From an uncultured Clostridia bacterium (GTDB taxonomy: Bacteria > Bacillota > Clostridia > Peptostreptococcales > Anaerovoracaceae), in assembly GCA_934234035.1 (NCBI GenBank), contig CAKQHH010000024.1:1-23702 (forward strand): 23,702 bases of DNA. Reading direction: 5' to 3'. A model generated the notes under the pieces. It saw only the letters and a list, made by a program, of their open reading frames with translations, did not search any database and was not told where the DNA came from. Of the stretch, positions 1 through 23,696 are shown one piece after another. The stretch's first letter is position 1, and each line of letters opens with the position of its first letter. The translations under genes and the position numbers were made by a program.

Positions 1-373
1 CTTGATCCCTCGTCGTGGGGCACCACGTCGCCCGAACCGGCCGGGCATTCGGCGGCTGCGACGTGGTGCTTCACCCCCGCCAAAGCCTTGATTCTTCGTC
101 GCGGGGCACCACGTCGCCTGCGCACGGCGGGCATTCGGCGTCTTCGACGTGGTGCTTCACCCCTGCCAAAGCCTTGATTTTTCGTCGCGGGGCACCACGT
201 CGCCCGGCTCGGCCGGGCATTCGGCGGCTCCGACGTGGTGCTTCACCCTCACCAAAGCCTTGATCCCTCGTCGTGGGGCACCACGTCGCCCGAACCGGCC
301 GGGCATTCGGCGGCTGCGACGTGGTGCTTCACCCCTGCCAAAGCCTTGATCCTTCGTCGCGGGGCACCACGTC
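1..373. repeat. Tandem 86-bp array of structured palindromes (array 1)
   Basis: Four complete units (60-115, 146-201, 232-287, 318-373) and the right half of a fifth (1-29) repeat with an exact 86-bp period. Each unit is a 56-bp inverted repeat bounded by GACGTGGTGC and GCACCACGTC, and units are separated by a near-identical 30-bp GC-rich spacer containing CCGGCCGGG. Inside each unit an inner stem (for example CCCGC with GCGGG) and a central core CAAAGCCTTGA are kept. The inner stem varies in a compensatory way: CTCAC with GTGGG in the unit at 232. The array lies beyond the terminator of the leftward permease gene and continues past the left edge of the window. I do not recognise a named family. 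The spacers are repeated, so this is not CRISPR, and reading frames through it shift with the period, so it is not coding. Confidence 0.95.
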
Positions 374-415
374 GCCGGAACCGGCCGGCCCTGTTCCACG
401 CCCGAAGAGCCATCG

Positions 416-448
416 GGCCCGGCCTGGCACCCGCCGGCCGGGCCTTTT
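416..448 (+). terminator. Possible rightward intrinsic terminator
   Basis: GGCCCGGCC (416-424) pairs with GGCCGGGCC (436-444), and TTTT follows at 445-448. The surrounding 374-456 looks like degenerate, GC-rich array spacer. It could end a rightward transcript entering from the left edge. The T tract is short, so confidence is modest. Confidence 0.35.
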
Positions 449-457
449 GGCAGCACC

Positions 458-496
458 AAAAAAGAGCTGCCGTCGATTTCTCGAAACGGCAGCTCT
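458..496 (-). terminator. Intrinsic terminator of the AEC permease gene
   Basis: On the minus strand, AGAGCTGCCGT and ACGGCAGCTCT form a perfect 11-bp stem with a 12-nt loop, followed directly by six T residues (plus-strand A-run 458-463). It lies about 35 bp after the permease stop codon and before array 1. Confidence 0.9.
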
Positions 497-530
497 CATC
501 TATTCATATATTCAATACTTCTTCATCCGG

Positions 531-1463
531 TTATACAAACATTGTAACAAATGGAATGGTGAACAGGGACAGCAGGGTGGTCAGTGCGTAGCCCCGGCTG
601 CACAGATCCGCATCCACATCGTAGCTCTCGCAGGCAATGACCGGCATGCTGCCGTTAGGCATTCCGTAGAGGAGGATGAAAATGCCCACCAGGGTGGAAT
701 CGAAACCCATGCCGCCGCTGCGATGCAGCACCAGTGCTGCCGTCGCCGGAATCAGCAGAAGCTGGAACAAGGAGAACACGTACAGGCGAACGTCCGTGAA
801 AACCCGCTTGAGATTGATTTGAGCCAGTGCACATCCGGTGATAATCATGGACAACGGAATGCAGGTATCCGACACGTAGGTGATGCATTTTACCGTGAGT
901 TCCGGGATGTGAATCGGGAACAGTACGAGAATCATTGCCAACAGGACACAGATGATTCCCGGATTAATGAGATCCTTGAACCGGAATGGGGATTTGTCCC
1001 CGGACATTCTCTTGAACACCTGAATGGCATAAGTATAGAAGAGAAGATTGAACCCCAGCGCATAGAATGTGATGTAGAACGTCTCCTCCGAACCGTATAG
1101 GGACTCCACCAGCGGAATGCCCATGAACGCCGTGTTGGCAAAAACCAGCATGATGGTCACCAGTTTCCGGTCGTTCCCCTGTACCCGCAGAAGCTTGGCC
1201 ACCAACGGACCCAGAAGAATCATCAGCCCGTAGAACAGCGCCATGAGAATCAGGTTCTGCGCCATCAGATTTTTGGGAATGGAGCCGGATCCGCTGAGGG
1301 CGGTGGAAATCATCAGCAATGGGTTAAAAACATTGACGATGAGGTTCGAGATTTCCGACGTTCCCTGCTTGGTGAGCCATCCCTTTCGGAAGCAGAAAAA
1401 GCCCACAAAAATAAAACAAAAGAGAAGCACGAGCTTCTCAAGAATGATTAAGCTGTCACTCAT
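531..1463 (-). CDS. AEC (auxin efflux carrier) family transporter
   Basis: A 310-residue integral membrane protein with about ten hydrophobic segments, matching AEC-family permeases such as the malate and other organic-anion carriers of Firmicutes. Recognisable features are an N-terminal half with NPLLMISTAL, a middle segment NTAFMGIPLV, and a C-terminal half with the GMPNGSMPVIA block. Together these give the family's two five-helix repeats. The substrate cannot be read from the sequence; members carry malate, lactate or other small anions by proton- or sodium-coupled transport. I chose ATG at 1463 (MSDSL). A TTG start at 1487 would add eight residues but lacks a good ribosome binding site, while AAAGG sits 11 nt before 1463. 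The gene is single, diverges from eno, and ends at a strong terminator. Confidence 0.85.
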   Translation of the reverse strand: MSDSLIILEKLVLLFCFIFVGFFCFRKGWLTKQGTSEISNLIVNVFNPLLMISTALSGSGSIPKNLMAQNLILMALFYGLMILLGPLVAKLLRVQGNDRKLVTIMLVFANTAFMGIPLVESLYGSEETFYITFYALGFNLLFYTYAIQVFKRMSGDKSPFRFKDLINPGIICVLLAMILVLFPIHIPELTVKCITYVSDTCIPLSMIITGCALAQINLKRVFTDVRLYVFSLFQLLLIPATAALVLHRSGGMGFDSTLVGIFILLYGMPNGSMPVIACESYDVDADLCSRGYALTTLLSLFTIPFVTMFV

Positions 1464-1555
1464 TTTCCAATAAACCTTTCTATTCAATCACCACTAACAC
1501 ATTTTCACGGAAAACATGCATCAACCGATTTTTATTTTTCCGCGAAAACTCATAT

Positions 1556-1561
1556 ATTATA
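1556..1561 (-). promoter_or_regulatory. Likely -10 box for the AEC permease gene
   Basis: The minus strand reads TATAAT here, about 95 bp before the permease start. No convincing -35 hexamer is visible 17 bp upstream (only TTCTAT-like sequence), so the promoter may be weak or activator dependent. Confidence 0.4.
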
Positions 1562-1647
1562 CCACTTTTTGGCGGCGAATAGAATAGCATTGCCGGAAAA
1601 GTTGGGAGAAAATTAGTTTTTTTTACCAAAATATAAGAGAAGCTTTT

Positions 1648-1676
1648 TTGCATATTTCGCAAAAAAATGGTATCAT
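1648..1676 (+). promoter_or_regulatory. Sigma-A promoter of eno
   Basis: TTGCAT (1648-1653) and TATCAT (1671-1676) are separated by exactly 17 bp. The roughly 80-nt leader that follows contains a small hairpin (GAATCG with CGATTC) just before the Shine-Dalgarno sequence GGAAAGGA, and translation starts at ATG 1761. Confidence 0.65.
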
Positions 1677-1733
1677 GCTGTTGAGGCGTCCCGAGGCGCC
1701 GACCGAAAAAGTGAAATTCTAAGGAATCGATGA

Positions 1734-3059
<1,326 letters not shown>

Positions 3060-3133
3060 TTCATGAATAGAGGTAATCCCTGAAGAATTGAGAAAGAGCT
3101 GCTAGATAGCACGATTATAATGGGCACGAATGA

Positions 3134-3200
3134 AAGACTTGGTGTAAAGAAACAGAAGGCAAATGGCCGGAACGGTTTCTTACATCAAGTCTTTTTGTTT
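3134..3200 (+). terminator. Intrinsic terminator of eno
   Basis: AAGACTTGGTGTAA (from 3134) plus GAAAC pairs with GTTTC plus TTACATCAAGTCTT (3175-3193), giving a stem of nearly 20 bp with one mismatch and one bulge, followed by TTTTTGTTTT. The outer arm GACTTGGTG equals the first nine bases of the palindrome arm found at 23640. Confidence 0.9.
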
Positions 3201-3218
3201 TCGTCATTTCCCATCGGG

Positions 3219-3703
3219 GACGTGGTGCTTCACCCCCGTCAAAGCCTTGATCTTCCGTCGCGGGGCACCACGTCAGCCGCGCCGGCCGGGCCTTTGGTGA
3301 TGCGGACGTGGTGCTTCACCCCCATCAAAGCCTTGATTCTTCGTCGCGGGGCACCACGTCAGCCGCGCCGGCCGGGCTTCGGGTGATGCGGACGTGGTGC
3401 TTCACCCTCGTCAAAGCCATGATCTTTCGTCGCGGGGCACCACGTCAGCCGCGCCGGGCGGGCATTTGGTGATGCGGACGTGGTGCTTTACCCCCGTCAA
3501 AGCCTTGATCTTTCGTCACGGGGCACCACGTCAGCCGCGCCGGCCGGACCTCTGGTGATGCGGACGTGGTGCTTCACCCTCGTCAAAGCCTTGATCTTTC
3601 GTCACGGGGCACCACGTCAGCCGCGCCGGCCGGACCTCTGGTGATGCGGACGTGGTGCTTCACCCCCGTCAAGCCTTGATCTTCCGTCGTGGGGCACCAC
3701 GTC
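3219..3703. repeat. Tandem 86-bp array of structured palindromes (array 2)
   Basis: Six units start at 3219, 3305, 3391, 3477, 3563 and 3649, an exact 86-bp period. Each has arms GACGTGGTGC and GCACCACGTC as in array 1; the last unit is 55 bp after losing one A from its core. The 30-bp spacers resemble each other but differ from array 1 apart from CCGGCCGG(G/A). The inner stem is conserved by pairing: CCCGT with GCGGG, CCCGT with ACGGG, CTCGT with ACGGG; the unit at 3305 has one A-C mismatch. The array starts about 20 bp after the eno terminator and fills most of the gap between the convergent eno and hemolysin III genes. Confidence 0.95.
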
Positions 3704-3710
3704 AGCAATG

Positions 3711-3885
3711 AAAAAACCTGCATCCGGAAAGCAATCTCAGCTTGACGATGAGCAAGAGCGTGCTAGGCTGGGCCAGCCAGGCTGGCACGAGCGGAGAATC
3801 CGCGACGTGTCACCTGGCGGCAGCCTAATTGCACGCTCTTCGAGGCTCGTAGTCAAGCTGTTGCTGATTGGTGCAGGTCTTTTCT
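3711..3885. other. Long (about 175 bp) imperfect palindrome, possible bidirectional terminator or MITE-like element
   Basis: The left arm 3711-3770 and right arm 3821-3885 are imperfect reverse complements. Matching blocks include ACCTGCA, CAGCTTGAC, GAGC, AAGAGCGTGC and TAGGCTG. Inner blocks GCCAGG and CCTGGC and an apical GCGGA-GAA-TCCGC hairpin centre it at about 3797. Outward of the stem, both strands are T-rich: six T residues on the minus strand and TCTTTTCTTTT on the plus strand. It could therefore terminate hemolysin III transcripts and any read-through from eno. No transposase or clear target duplication is visible. A structured RNA, a MITE remnant or an overgrown terminator all remain possible. 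Confidence 0.7.
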
Positions 3886-3928
3886 TTTATTTAAATCTCC
3901 GAGAAAAAGCGAAGATTAATTTTTCTAA

Positions 3929-4657
3929 TTACACCGCCATCGGGCAGAGCACCAGGTACGCCAGCATGTAGTGGCAAAAGCTTCCCGCCATGACGAAGAG
4001 GTGAAACAACTCATGGTTGCCGAAGCCGATATTGTTTGCCGGAATGATTTTCAGCTTGAGGGCGTAGATCACTCCGCCGACGGTGTAAAACAATCCTCCC
4101 GCCAGAAGCCAGAGGAATCCGGCGAAAGAAAGGTTGGCATAAATCGTGGGCAGGACGGAAACGCAGAGCCAGCCCATGCCGATGTACATCACGGAAGAGA
4201 CCCATTTCGGACAGGTCACCCAGAAGAATTTGAACAGCATTCCCAGTGCGGCCACAATCCAAACCGCGATGAGGAGCCGGGTCCCCGCCTTTCCCAGAAT
4301 GGCAATCAGGCACACCGGTGTGTAGGAACCGGCAATCAGCACGAAAATGCTCATGTGATCCAGGCATTTCAGCCGATGGTTCCGAACTTCATCCAGATTA
4401 AATGCGTGATAGGATGCGCTGGCGCCGTACAGCAGGATCATGCTCAGCATGAAAACCCCCATGGAAATCAGCGCCCGAAGGGGTGCGCCGGCGAAAGCTC
4501 CGTGAATCAGGAGGAGCGGGGTAGCGACGATGGCCATCAGGCATCCGATAAAATGAGTCAGCGAACTGATGGGATCTTTGGCGCGGAATACCGGGCGGTC
4601 TTTCGATGTCTCGGTGCCGCCGGGAACGATATTGGTGGAATAAGATAACTTCTGCAT
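3929..4657 (-). CDS. Hemolysin III / PAQR-family membrane protein (TrhA-like)
   Basis: A 242-residue protein with seven predicted membrane helices, the hallmark of the bacterial hemolysin III branch of the PAQR family. The putative metal-site residues are present: Ser80 and His84 in GASASYH, Asp100-His101 in LDHMS, and His215 and His219 in the C-terminal NHELFH. Bacterial members have been linked to membrane-energetics homeostasis; the hemolysin name is historical and does not show cytolytic activity. ATG 4657 has a perfect AGGAGG seven bases upstream. The gene diverges from a DUF1836 regulator and shares its operator region. Its leader carries a terminator whose T-run abuts the ribosome binding site, so expression is probably controlled by both repression and attenuation. 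Confidence 0.9.
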   Translation of the reverse strand: MQKLSYSTNIVPGGTETSKDRPVFRAKDPISSLTHFIGCLMAIVATPLLLIHGAFAGAPLRALISMGVFMLSMILLYGASASYHAFNLDEVRNHRLKCLDHMSIFVLIAGSYTPVCLIAILGKAGTRLLIAVWIVAALGMLFKFFWVTCPKWVSSVMYIGMGWLCVSVLPTIYANLSFAGFLWLLAGGLFYTVGGVIYALKLKIIPANNIGFGNHELFHLFVMAGSFCHYMLAYLVLCPMAV

Positions 4658-18944: not shown

Positions 18945-19262
18945 ATGGTGTGGAGAGAGAAAGTGACTAATTTGATGACTGAGAGGGGTATTAACCAAAA
19001 ACAATTATCGCAATTGAGTGGAATAACAGAAAGCTCAATTTCAAGATACCTGCATAGTTCGCAGCGCCCAAGGATGGATATTGTAGTTAATATTGCAAAG
19101 GCGCTTCATGTAGAGACCGAATACTTATTGGATGACGATGAAAAAAGTGTATCCGCATATAATTCTATTGCAACTGCAATTGCTCGAAAGGGAAAAGACC
19201 TTACGGCGGAAGAAAAGAACGAGTTGATTGCATTGATTTTAGGAGCAAAGGCAGATGTATAG
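18945..19262 (+). CDS. XRE/Cro-CI family repressor
   Basis: A 105-residue regulator with a classical N-terminal helix-turn-helix at about 17-37 (NQKQLSQLSGITESSISRYL) and a short acidic, helical C-terminal part. This is the size of ImmR-like repressors of mobile elements. AGGAGGAG precedes ATG 18945. The stop overlaps the start of the ImmA-like gene by 8 bp, so the two are co-translated. The 36-bp palindrome at its promoter, and a matched site after the operon, are the expected targets. Its relief from repression is probably by proteolysis through the next gene product (known for ImmR/ImmA; inferred here). Confidence 0.92.
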   Translation: MVWREKVTNLMTERGINQKQLSQLSGITESSISRYLHSSQRPRMDIVVNIAKALHVETEYLLDDDEKSVSAYNSIATAIARKGKDLTAEEKNELIALILGAKADV

Positions 19263-19821
19263 AAGAGGAAAAACGTATGATGAGATTGCAGGGGTAGTTA
19301 TTGATATCTATATCGATTATGGAATCAAGTCATTTCCTGTTGACCCGAAAGAGGTATGTAGAAAACTAGGAGTGGCTTTAGTGGCCTATTCTGAATATGA
19401 TGATGAACAGAGAATGCTTCTTGAAAAGAAATCCAAAGATGGATTCTTTGTTAGAGGGGCTTGTAATCTGCCTCCTACAATTTTTTATAACGACAGACAA
19501 GAATCTGAGGGGAGAATTCGTTTTACGATTTTCCATGAATTAAAGCACTATGTATGTGAAGATGATAATGATGATAAAGATGATTTGGCAGATTATTTTT
19601 CAAAGTATTTCATGTGCCCAATTCCGTTCCTTTTATTGAAGAAGATTGATGTGCCGTTAGAGGTAATGTCCTTTTGTGGCACCAGTTCAATGGTTGCATA
19701 CAATGTTTGTTCCAATATCGAGAATAGGAGAAGAAAATACAATTATAATTTATTTGACTATGAAGTGAGATTAATTGAACATTTGAATCCTGTTTTGCTA
19801 GAAGCTTATCCCATGAAGTGA
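19255..19821 (+). CDS. ImmA/IrrE-type metallopeptidase
   Basis: A 188-residue protein of the ImmA/IrrE (COG2856) family. The zinc motif His94-Glu-Leu-Lys-His98 sits in IRFTIFHELKHYV, and the downstream DDLADYFSKYFMCPIPFLL matches the usual EAxxFAxxLLMP helix. The glutamate normally found there as third ligand appears to be replaced by aspartate or shifted, so activity should be checked. Such proteases cleave the partner XRE repressor to induce a mobile element or stress operon. The gene overlaps the XRE gene by 8 bp. Codon usage is AT-rich like the rest of the island. Confidence 0.9.
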   Translation: MYRRGKTYDEIAGVVIDIYIDYGIKSFPVDPKEVCRKLGVALVAYSEYDDEQRMLLEKKSKDGFFVRGACNLPPTIFYNDRQESEGRIRFTIFHELKHYVCEDDNDDKDDLADYFSKYFMCPIPFLLLKKIDVPLEVMSFCGTSSMVAYNVCSNIENRRRKYNYNLFDYEVRLIEHLNPVLLEAYPMK

Positions 19822-20169: not shown

Positions 20170-20673
20170 ATGGGAACAACTAAAACAGGCCGAGTATTAA
20201 ATACACGTGGAGCCGCAGGTCAAGCGAGTCAGTTTGCGGTTGTTCATTCTAACGAGGGCGATTATACTAAAGCAGGGAAGAAGAATCCGATTCGGTTAAA
20301 AGCAGGTGGTCATGGACAGGCAGGCATGAATGAACTTGATAAGTATGGTATTAAATATAACATTGTAAAAACGTATCCAAATGGAGTGAGGGTAGGAAAT
20401 ATTCCAAGTCACAAACAGAGAATGAAACGGACTGGAACAGGACAATCCTGGTTTCCCTCAAATTGGACTAGCAAGGATATTAAACATGCTGGTGAACATG
20501 TGGCAAACCTGAAAAGTAACAGACACATTCACATGAATGATGGAAAGCCTGTATACGGTATGTGGAAGGGTGTACGTGTTGGTGTGATTAGAACAAACGG
20601 AAAGATTGCTACAATATTTCCAGACTCTAAGCAACCATATAGAGGTAATAAGAAAGGTGGGAAAAGAAAATGA
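20170..20673 (+). CDS. EndoU-like polymorphic toxin domain protein (orphan module)
   Basis: A 167-residue basic protein resembling the C-terminal EndoU-type nuclease domains of polymorphic toxins. Visible blocks are RLKAGGHGQ (42-50, His48), NGVRVGNIPSHKQ (71-83, His81), TGTGQSWFPSNWT (88-100) with AGEHV after it, and KGVRVGVIRTNGKIATIFPD (133-152). EndoU members are ribonucleases using His and Lys residues. The assignment is from memory of family patterns, so moderate. No LXG, WXG or secretion domain precedes the module: it begins at ATG 20170 behind GGGAG as a free-standing protein. The immunity-like gene overlaps its end by 4 bp. It may be a displaced toxin cassette or act inside the cell. 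Confidence 0.65.
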   Translation: MGTTKTGRVLNTRGAAGQASQFAVVHSNEGDYTKAGKKNPIRLKAGGHGQAGMNELDKYGIKYNIVKTYPNGVRVGNIPSHKQRMKRTGTGQSWFPSNWTSKDIKHAGEHVANLKSNRHIHMNDGKPVYGMWKGVRVGVIRTNGKIATIFPDSKQPYRGNKKGGKRK

Positions 20674-21029
20674 ACATAGGAAAATTCAAAGAAATAATTC
20701 GAGAGAGAAGCAGAATTGCAGCAGAATGCTGTGATGAATGGTCATTTGGAATCGAAAAATGCTGGAACGAAGAAATAGAGATACTAAGTGAAGATGTTGA
20801 TGCGACAATCTCGTTTCTTCAGAATGAATGTACTGCTGAAGAATTCAGTTGGATTAGTGAAATAATTGATAATCTAGCAGAGCGAACCCGAAGTCGAGAA
20901 CTTGTGCAAGCATATAAGAATCTTATTGATAAGTTCCCTGAAGAATGCAAGGAAAGTAACATCTTAGAGTCTATTAAGTTCGCAGAAAACGTACTAAATG
21001 AAGAGGTGTATGATGAAAAAAAACAGTAA
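20670..21029 (+). CDS. Probable immunity protein for the EndoU-like toxin
   Basis: A 119-residue acidic, all-helical-looking protein with no signal peptide or membrane segment. It contains WSFGIEKCWNEEIEILSEDV and a second helical repeat EFSWISEIIDNLAERTRS. I do not recognise a named family with certainty. Its start overlaps the toxin stop in an ATGA arrangement, and its acidic nature contrasts with the basic toxin. Both are standard for toxin-immunity pairs, so the role is inferred from context. The DUF4417 gene overlaps its 3' end. Confidence 0.6.
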   Translation: MNIGKFKEIIRERSRIAAECCDEWSFGIEKCWNEEIEILSEDVDATISFLQNECTAEEFSWISEIIDNLAERTRSRELVQAYKNLIDKFPEECKESNILESIKFAENVLNEEVYDEKKQ

Positions 21030-23639: not shown

Positions 23640-23696
23640 GACTTGGTGCAAGAAATCCCGCAAAGCCTTGAAGTATCGTTCGGCTTGCACCAAGTC
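23640..23696. repeat. Variant palindrome unit (possible start of a third array)
   Basis: A 57-bp unit with perfect 13-bp arms, GACTTGGTGCAAG (23640-23652) and CTTGCACCAAGTC (23684-23696). It keeps the central CCCG-CAAAGCCTTGA-n-TCGTT-CGG organisation of arrays 1 and 2, but its arms differ at both partners (GACG to GACT, with CGTC to AGTC). A GC-rich spacer-like stretch (23618-23639) precedes it. It lies 35 bp beyond the fhs terminator and the window ends 6 bp later. Confidence 0.85.

Follow-up and report, generated by a model that had tools for sequence, protein, structure and literature searches.

Dispersed fixed-period hairpin arrays and a candidate nuclease-like partner family in the Anaerovoracaceae

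Why would a bacterial genome carry tandem copies of one palindrome between its genes, and does any protein belong with them? A contig of 23,702 bp from an uncultured Clostridia bacterium of the family Anaerovoracaceae (CAKQHH010000024.1; the whole stretch is referred to here as the window) raises this question at two places.

Tandem hairpin arrays in the window

Tandem Repeats Finder delimits two arrays with a period of 86, at 1-388 (4.5 copies, 87% matches) and at 3218-3706 (5.7 copies, 92%). Together they contain ten complete hairpins, each of 54 nt except the last, of 53 nt, with 32-bp spacers within each array. The original prediction had described ten units of exact period 86 with a 10-bp outer stem. 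The arrays are real, and the stem consists of 9 bp (ACGTGGTGC/GCACCACGT) plus a flanking G-C pair. A third site with a different stem, at 23640-23696, had been overlooked. The features discussed below are as follows.

1..388, plus strand: array 1 (subfamily S1), period 86, 32-bp spacers, complete 54-nt hairpins at 61-114, 147-200, 233-286 and 319-372; of a partial fifth hairpin only the 3' part is present, cut by the window start
531..1463, minus strand: Mem_trans transporter gene (Pfam Mem_trans), its 3' end facing array 1
1761..3059, plus strand: enolase gene (Pfam Enolase_N/Enolase_C), left neighbour of array 2 and pointing at it
3137..3190, no strand assigned: S2-like hairpin followed by a T-run, directly after the enolase gene
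3218..3706, plus strand: array 2 (subfamily S1), hairpins starting at 3220, 3306, 3392, 3478, 3564 (54 nt) and 3650 (53 nt), 32-bp spacers
3712..3870, no strand assigned: long imperfect palindrome AACCTGCATCCGGAAAGCAATCTC..., directly after array 2, arms 3738-3753 and 3845-3860
3929..4657, minus strand: HlyIII-family membrane protein gene (Pfam HlyIII), right neighbour of array 2 and pointing at it
23640..23696, plus strand: S2 hairpin, stem GACTTGGTGC/GCACCAAGTC, loop CCCGCAAAGCCTTG, downstream of the formate-tetrahydrofolate ligase gene (Pfam FTHFS); the window ends 6 bases further on

The enolase and HlyIII genes thus converge on array 2. The hairpin and T-run at 3137-3190, read from the sequence, are probably the enolase terminator, and Mogibacterium kristiansenii has one too. 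The stem and length of this hairpin are S2-like in both genomes, which could mean that an array unit was converted into a terminator, or that the conversion went the other way. By the same reading, a T-run hairpin stands behind the FTHFS gene and the S2 hairpin at 23640 lies beyond it. A terminator scan of window 1-4000 with a loop limit of 3-8 found none at the arrays. The long palindrome after array 2 has a 59-nt relative with a 25-bp perfect stem, which adjoins an S3 array in M. kristiansenii (C1:111242-111300).

No tRNA genes were found in the window, and no Rfam family reached its gathering score there, the best sub-threshold match in 1-4000 being sR14 (21.4 bits against 38); a known RNA family was rejected at that score, and reading the units as uptake sequences was set aside after counts. 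Elsewhere in the window, 20170-20673 encodes a bacterial EndoU domain (Pfam) and overlaps a small downstream ORF at 20670-21029; the two may be a toxin and its immunity partner. An HTH regulator and an IrrE-like peptidase (Pfam) form a pair at 18945-19821; such pairs occur in mobile elements.

Subfamilies keep the loop and exchange the stem

Within the contig collection, the pattern was found in one genome, that of M. kristiansenii (G001), a species of an oral and gut genus; over the enolase region its identity to the window is 95%. Its 73 exact ACGTGGTGC N25-50 GCACCACGT sites, against 0 in the reversed control, place the arrays far beyond chance. The genome-wide covariance-model search that the original prediction had proposed found at least 149 units there, with 150 of 1418 candidates scored and a model built from 46 non-redundant units drawn from 123 rows at <90% identity. 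A wide spread of the S1 stem was rejected: among 197 Anaerovoracaceae genomes, only M. kristiansenii stands above chance. In other genomes of the family, one search gave 1-2 matches in each of three, a second gave one weak match in each of three (E 0.003-0.007), and a third gave one match in each of seven, against five reversed-control matches. The reversed-pattern controls for GTGGTGC words and for CGTGGTGC were uninformative because each word nearly equals its own reversal.

Hairpin length is almost constant. The 123 S1/S2-type rows, a set that leaves out the two enolase terminator-like hairpins, comprise 113 of 54 nt, nine of 55 nt and one of 53 nt. The outer stem is nearly invariant, with a compensatory change from G-C to U-A in 4 of 46 units. 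An inner 5-bp stem changing in matched pairs, as originally proposed, is seen loosely within the window, but it is only 50.0% paired over the 46 non-redundant units genome-wide, and such a bulged inner stem was rejected as a general feature. A direct continuation of the outer stem with a 4-bp apical stem fits better than that helix (84.9% of cells paired), and its covariation over the 46 units, 0.183, exceeds the shuffled mean of 0.099, with none of 500 shuffles as high. Hairpin positions 17-40 form a strongly conserved motif. The near-invariant core CAAAGCCTTGA noted in the window is real, but is the local form of this longer loop motif.

Searches with the loop in place of the stem revealed further stems, and at least five subfamilies can be distinguished that differ in stem but have the loop motif in common:

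S1: stem ACGTGGTGC, period 86
S2: stem ACTTGGTGC, period 87
S3: stem TGTTGGCG, period 86
S4: stem GTTTGC[T/G]CC, period 86
S5: stem GGTTCGCGC, period 96

These subfamilies align end to end over 55 columns. In a cross-subfamily alignment of 32 rows, many of which had been chosen as palindromes, the nine stem pairs are 95.5% paired, and the covariation score of 0.560 was reached by none of 500 shuffles, which averaged 0.163; of the five measures, two (both-side pair changes and further pair types) were not above the shuffles. A loop-first test is independent of the palindrome-based choice of rows. Searched with up to two mismatches, CCCGCAAAGCCTT had 78 matches in 400 kb, 67 of them within a stem of at least 8 bp, whereas none of the 38 matches to three scrambled motifs lay in a stem. 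The earlier claim that the folded form is what is kept is therefore supported by the replacement of stems from one subfamily to another around a retained loop; covariation of the inner stem lends it no support genome-wide.

Spacers measure 32 bp in S1-S4 (S2 included) and 42 bp in S5, about one helical turn more, a difference that may reflect phasing on duplex DNA. Arrays in two further genomes described below, on contig C2 of G002 and in G169, imply spacers of about 34 and 23 bp.

M. kristiansenii also has 63 exact S2 sites. In a 400-kb sample of its genome (parts of contigs C1 and C23), 17 of the 19 listed tandem-repeat rows with a period of 60-130 had a perfect unit stem of at least 8 bp, the two exceptions being overlapping 80-bp calls at one place. 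Arrays stand within about 250 bp of a contig end on C3, C6, C12, C13, C23, C25 and C41; the arrays therefore probably break the draft assembly, and the true copy number is probably higher. Single perfect terminator-like hairpins (AAAAGTGATGCA... and AGAATTGACGACG...) recur beside arrays, at C23:64393-64441, 103153-103199, 64465-64511 and 103386-103432 and at L001:3680-4020. Of these, the ATTGACGA type resembles the palindrome that flanks the nuclease gene at C34:61449.

At the place orthologous to array 1, M. kristiansenii likewise has an array, of seven hairpins. Array 2 has no such counterpart. Between enolase and HlyIII, M. kristiansenii lacks window 3210..3918, a segment of 709 bp made up of array 2 and the long hairpin that follows; there window positions 3209 and 3919 meet, at 36860/36863 of the joined C5 stretch. 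No target-site duplication, a trait of MITEs, was seen at this junction, for which one empty site was compared.

We placed 42 arrays among their neighbouring genes. Fourteen lie in convergent gaps, 10 in tandem gaps and 6 in divergent gaps, and the other 12 lie at contig, stretch or window ends, nine adjoining a gene 3' end and three a 5' end. The arrays other than the 12 end arrays and two C5 arrays with failed gene calls were grouped by hand into 24 distinct gaps. Twelve of these are convergent, compared with 22 of 170 background gaps (p=8e-5); the background consists of C1 and C23 with their array gaps included, and most other loci had been chosen for holding arrays. Within C1 and C23 alone, the counts are 3 of 10 and 19 of 160 (p=0.12). 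The codon-score gene caller overlooked two of the three nuclease genes that adjoin arrays and a large part of C5; the two apparently divergent arrays on C5, for which a neighbour lay >30 kb away, were accordingly excluded beforehand. Two of the divergent gaps contain the nuclease-like gene or abut it. Codon usage trained on the window finds no genes in C5:22600-56200, which is probably foreign DNA, or else a failure of the gene caller.

A nuclease-like protein family beside the palindromes

Five genes for a nuclease-like protein were found in M. kristiansenii. The family is present in 102 of 197 Anaerovoracaceae genomes, often with several matches per genome (up to 11 places were scored in each). 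An alignment of 34 members, drawn from 43 homologues listed, describes stand-alone proteins of 254-312 aa with invariant E167, E184, D197 (PDF) and E212, and with E-H-x-G in place of ExK; the motif order of the PD-(D/E)XK superfamily is E ... PD ... (D/E)xK. Structural neighbours are TnsA, NGO0050, Vsr, Bax1, VRR_NUC and Hjc. We regard the protein as PD-(D/E)XK-like by sequence, and its fold as suggestive. Among the 12 Pfam families listed for the 34 members at E<=0.1 there was no convincing match and no Nop domain, and searches of NCBIfam and PDB sequences with three members were likewise without a convincing match.

A viral origin was rejected, as no viral contig has the S1 pattern and no PHROG matches the 34 members. 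Three viral stretches match the peptide pattern of one nuclease, and none encodes a relative, in a single-protein query that covers close relatives only. A plasmid origin was also rejected, with no plasmid match to window 3000-4000 or to the nuclease on G002 C114.

The genes and the palindromes occur side by side. Three M. kristiansenii paralogues, 31-38% identical to one another, adjoin S1, S2 and S5 arrays, and the S2 and S5 arrays lie on both sides of the gene. The other two paralogues adjoin ATTGACGA and TTCACGCT palindromes, which form 9 and 4 hairpins, respectively, in a 440-kb sample (reversed-word controls, 0). We then scored homologues that had 300 bp or more of sequence 5' of the gene for at least two hairpins of one 8-nt word within 500 bp. 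Of 41 such homologues, 14 have repeated same-stem hairpins in this 5' flank, and the 8-nt word differs in every case. These are 8 of the 9 from Mogibacterium (G001 and G002) and 6 of the 32 from elsewhere. On inspection, G044 is a weak positive, and G147 and G183 carry the palindrome on both sides of the gene. Controls gave 0 of 173 windows of the same loci (three 20-kb G001 loci omitted), 0 of 263 upstream flanks of other genes (from genomes other than G001) and 0 of 109 with a gap of at least 200 bp. The pairing is strong in Mogibacterium and extends to a minority of distant homologues.

If the pairing is general, palindromes beside these genes should be dispersed through their own genomes, and three of three whole-genome tests in G002 and G169 agreed with this prediction (reversed controls, 0). 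G002 was put in Mogibacterium solely via a genus search of G001, and G169 came solely via the family search. In G002, GGTGGCTCA/TGAGCCACC forms 34 hairpins on 10 contigs, mostly in period-74 arrays, and TGGTGGGA/TCCCACCA forms nine hairpins on three contigs, four of the nine with CCCTTAT in the loop, as in S1. The G169 palindrome ATTAGTTAG/CTAACTAAT forms 20 hairpins on five contigs, with a period of 63. Contrary to the prediction, the G051 palindrome was seen at the gene alone in a 142-kb sample.

The Mogibacterium members form one clade in the protein tree. Within it, hairpin length splits with the phylogeny in eight proteins: the four with 38-43-nt hairpins, two per species, are monophyletic (98/92), and the four with 54-57 nt lie outside. 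This split was noticed after the fact. One further member, G002 C175, lacked an array by the criterion used. Either phase of a tandem array may count as the hairpin, and the shorter phase gives 38-43 nt as against 50-54.

Proposed mechanism and alternatives

We consider these elements best read as nuclease-paired mobile palindrome arrays, like REP/RAYT systems in layout but not members of them, and give this reading a probability of roughly 0.57. The units would be non-autonomous copies of dispersed tandem hairpin repeats in several subfamilies, and the arrays in the window would be copies without a gene of their own. Each subfamily would have as its partner a PD-(D/E)XK-like protein, with the gene bordered by that subfamily's own palindrome. 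The enzyme would recognise its cognate palindrome as folded DNA, either a single-stranded hairpin or a cruciform, with the loop as a common core and the stem as the specificity element, or private address. Nicking or cutting, followed by repair from other copies, would spread the palindrome and make arrays grow or shrink by whole units, and copies would survive at the least harmful places, for the most part past the ends of genes. We infer that the protein is an active nuclease that acts on the hairpins and moves or amplifies them, and that its substrate is DNA rather than RNA.

As described in the parts of two papers available to us, REP and REPIN elements are many-copy extragenic palindromes with several subfamilies per genome, a bias toward gene 3' ends and convergent gaps, known tandem REPIN clusters, and a RAYT partner (TnpA-REP, Y1) (PMC3733652, PMC3116915). 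The likeness lies in a partner gene flanked by a palindrome of which dispersed copies exist in the genome, a layout found here with a different protein. The partner here resembles PD-(D/E)XK nucleases, and the arrays run head-to-tail with one period per subfamily. A RAYT/IS200 partner was rejected: a search of M. kristiansenii with PF01797 gave 0 matches at E<=0.001, in a draft assembly where a gap is possible, while the control matched 5 of 14 known genomes. REP superfamilies are defined, in the available text of one paper, by an unpaired GTAG or CGTC at one end of the palindrome (PMC3733652). Column counts over 113 S1 units show variation at flanking positions -3 to -1 and place the 3' CGTC within the stem; S2 has AGTC. 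The same text gives REP loops of 2-20 nt (GTAG) or 4-5 nt (CGTC) and describes head-to-tail dimers as absent or rare (PMC3733652). Loops in S1-S5 are about 30-36 nt long, with a conserved motif of their own, and the units stand head-to-tail, outside that description. The 38-43-nt hairpins have loops of about 15-23 nt, and loop length therefore separates only part of the group from REPs. With no Rfam family at gathering score, no REP tag and no Y1 transposase in M. kristiansenii, the units matched no known repeat family, and the original statement that no named element has this array layout holds for the libraries and papers searched.

A first alternative is passive satellite or VNTR DNA, made by rare duplication and unequal crossing-over and gathering in gene-poor places, with the nuclease-like genes nearby by coincidence. 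MIRU/VNTR minisatellites resemble the arrays in having 50-100-bp tandem units dispersed over intergenic loci. Consistent with such an origin, the arrays vary in unit number and sit in intergenic gaps, often convergent ones, and their units are related, with spacer identity averaging 0.75 within groups (the window's two arrays pooled as one), 0.46 between groups and 0.30 when shuffled. In M. kristiansenii, moreover, only five nuclease genes were found, against 42 arrays of which most are from that genome, and most distant homologues are without a repeated palindrome by the flank test. In contrast to MIRU/VNTR units, however, those described here are palindromic, with exchangeable stems, and are paired with a gene family. 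Stem exchange around a conserved loop, a flank association of 14 of 41 against 0 of 263 with a different word each time, the successful dispersal prediction in two other genomes and a hairpin length that follows the nuclease tree in eight proteins all argue against a passive origin, which we regard as unlikely.

The units could instead be RNA or DNA elements kept by host selection, such as terminators, protectors of mRNA 3' ends, or BIME-like supercoil or nucleoid sites. BIME-2 elements offer a likeness here, as tandem palindromes between enterobacterial genes. REPs alternate in orientation within BIMEs, according to the available part of the source (PMC2817692), whereas the units here are head-to-tail with one period per subfamily. 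The excess of convergent gaps, which places arrays at gene 3' ends, and the S2-like hairpin with its T-run after enolase in both genomes would suit a host function. On the other hand, array 2 begins beyond the terminator-like enolase hairpin, and the S2 hairpin at 23640 lies beyond the T-run hairpin of the FTHFS gene, as both are read from the sequence. M. kristiansenii, about 95% identical to the window in this region, lacks the whole of array 2 at the corresponding site, and in the other genomes sampled from the family the S1 families do not rise above chance. Selection by the host is quite unlikely to explain the arrays.

A further possibility is a nuclease with a role in defence or regulation, for which the palindromes would be sites of self-recognition or regulation rather than cargo. 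PADLOC speaks for a link to defence: all 34 members match the C-terminal part of PDC-S68 (best E 8.7e-34), and 16 of them match HEAT_CxxC_PD-DEXK. A C-terminal nuclease-like domain is common to both of these and to the present family. The PDC-S68 match, however, spans the last ~130 positions of profiles 1202-1273 long in the one member tabulated, against the stand-alone 254-312 aa here. At least 11 matching places in some genomes, together with the dispersal of the arrays, suit a mobile repeat better, and a defence or regulatory role is decidedly improbable.

An RNA-guided system of CRISPR or TIGR type, with transcribed arrays whose units serve as guides, shares the layout of tandem repeats and spacers beside a nuclease-like gene, but is extremely improbable given spacers that are 75% identical on average within groups (0.51-0.94 by group), unlike guides, arrays scattered far from the gene and across the genome, and no Nop domain among the Pfam matches of the 34 members. 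A CRISPR array needs unrelated spacers, and was rejected on the S1 group mean identity of 0.75 against 0.30 shuffled. TIGR-Tas, in the part of its description available to us, combines a Nop-domain protein with 8-12-nt edge and loop repeats and 9-nt spacers, or with box C/D stem-loop arrays, next to tas (PMC12045711). It was rejected as well, the units here being 63-96 bp with hairpins of 38-57 nt in dispersed arrays.

Enzyme-paired dispersed palindromes are already known as a kind of element; the enzyme proposed here is unlike the Y1 transposase of REP/RAYT. Our literature search, which subscription papers and preprints mostly fell outside, brought up no work on repeats in Mogibacterium and none that pairs such a nuclease with palindromes. 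Going beyond the reading of nuclease-paired mobile arrays, we tentatively suggest, at somewhat less than even odds, that these are a second, independent class of palindrome/enzyme mobile elements, in which a PD-(D/E)XK-like family reads a loop core and a private stem and amplifies dispersed arrays of fixed period, new subfamilies arising as paralogue and stem diverge together. If this is true, the association of repetitive extragenic palindromes with a dedicated enzyme has at least two evolutionary origins, and the enzymes are unrelated. Through the pairing, a protein family that occurs in roughly half of the Anaerovoracaceae genomes sampled gains a visible genomic target, and a hypothetical protein becomes one half of a testable enzyme-substrate pair. 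The natural stem swaps among S1, S2 and S5, each beside its own paralogue, would provide a ready specificity assay for a structure-directed nuclease.
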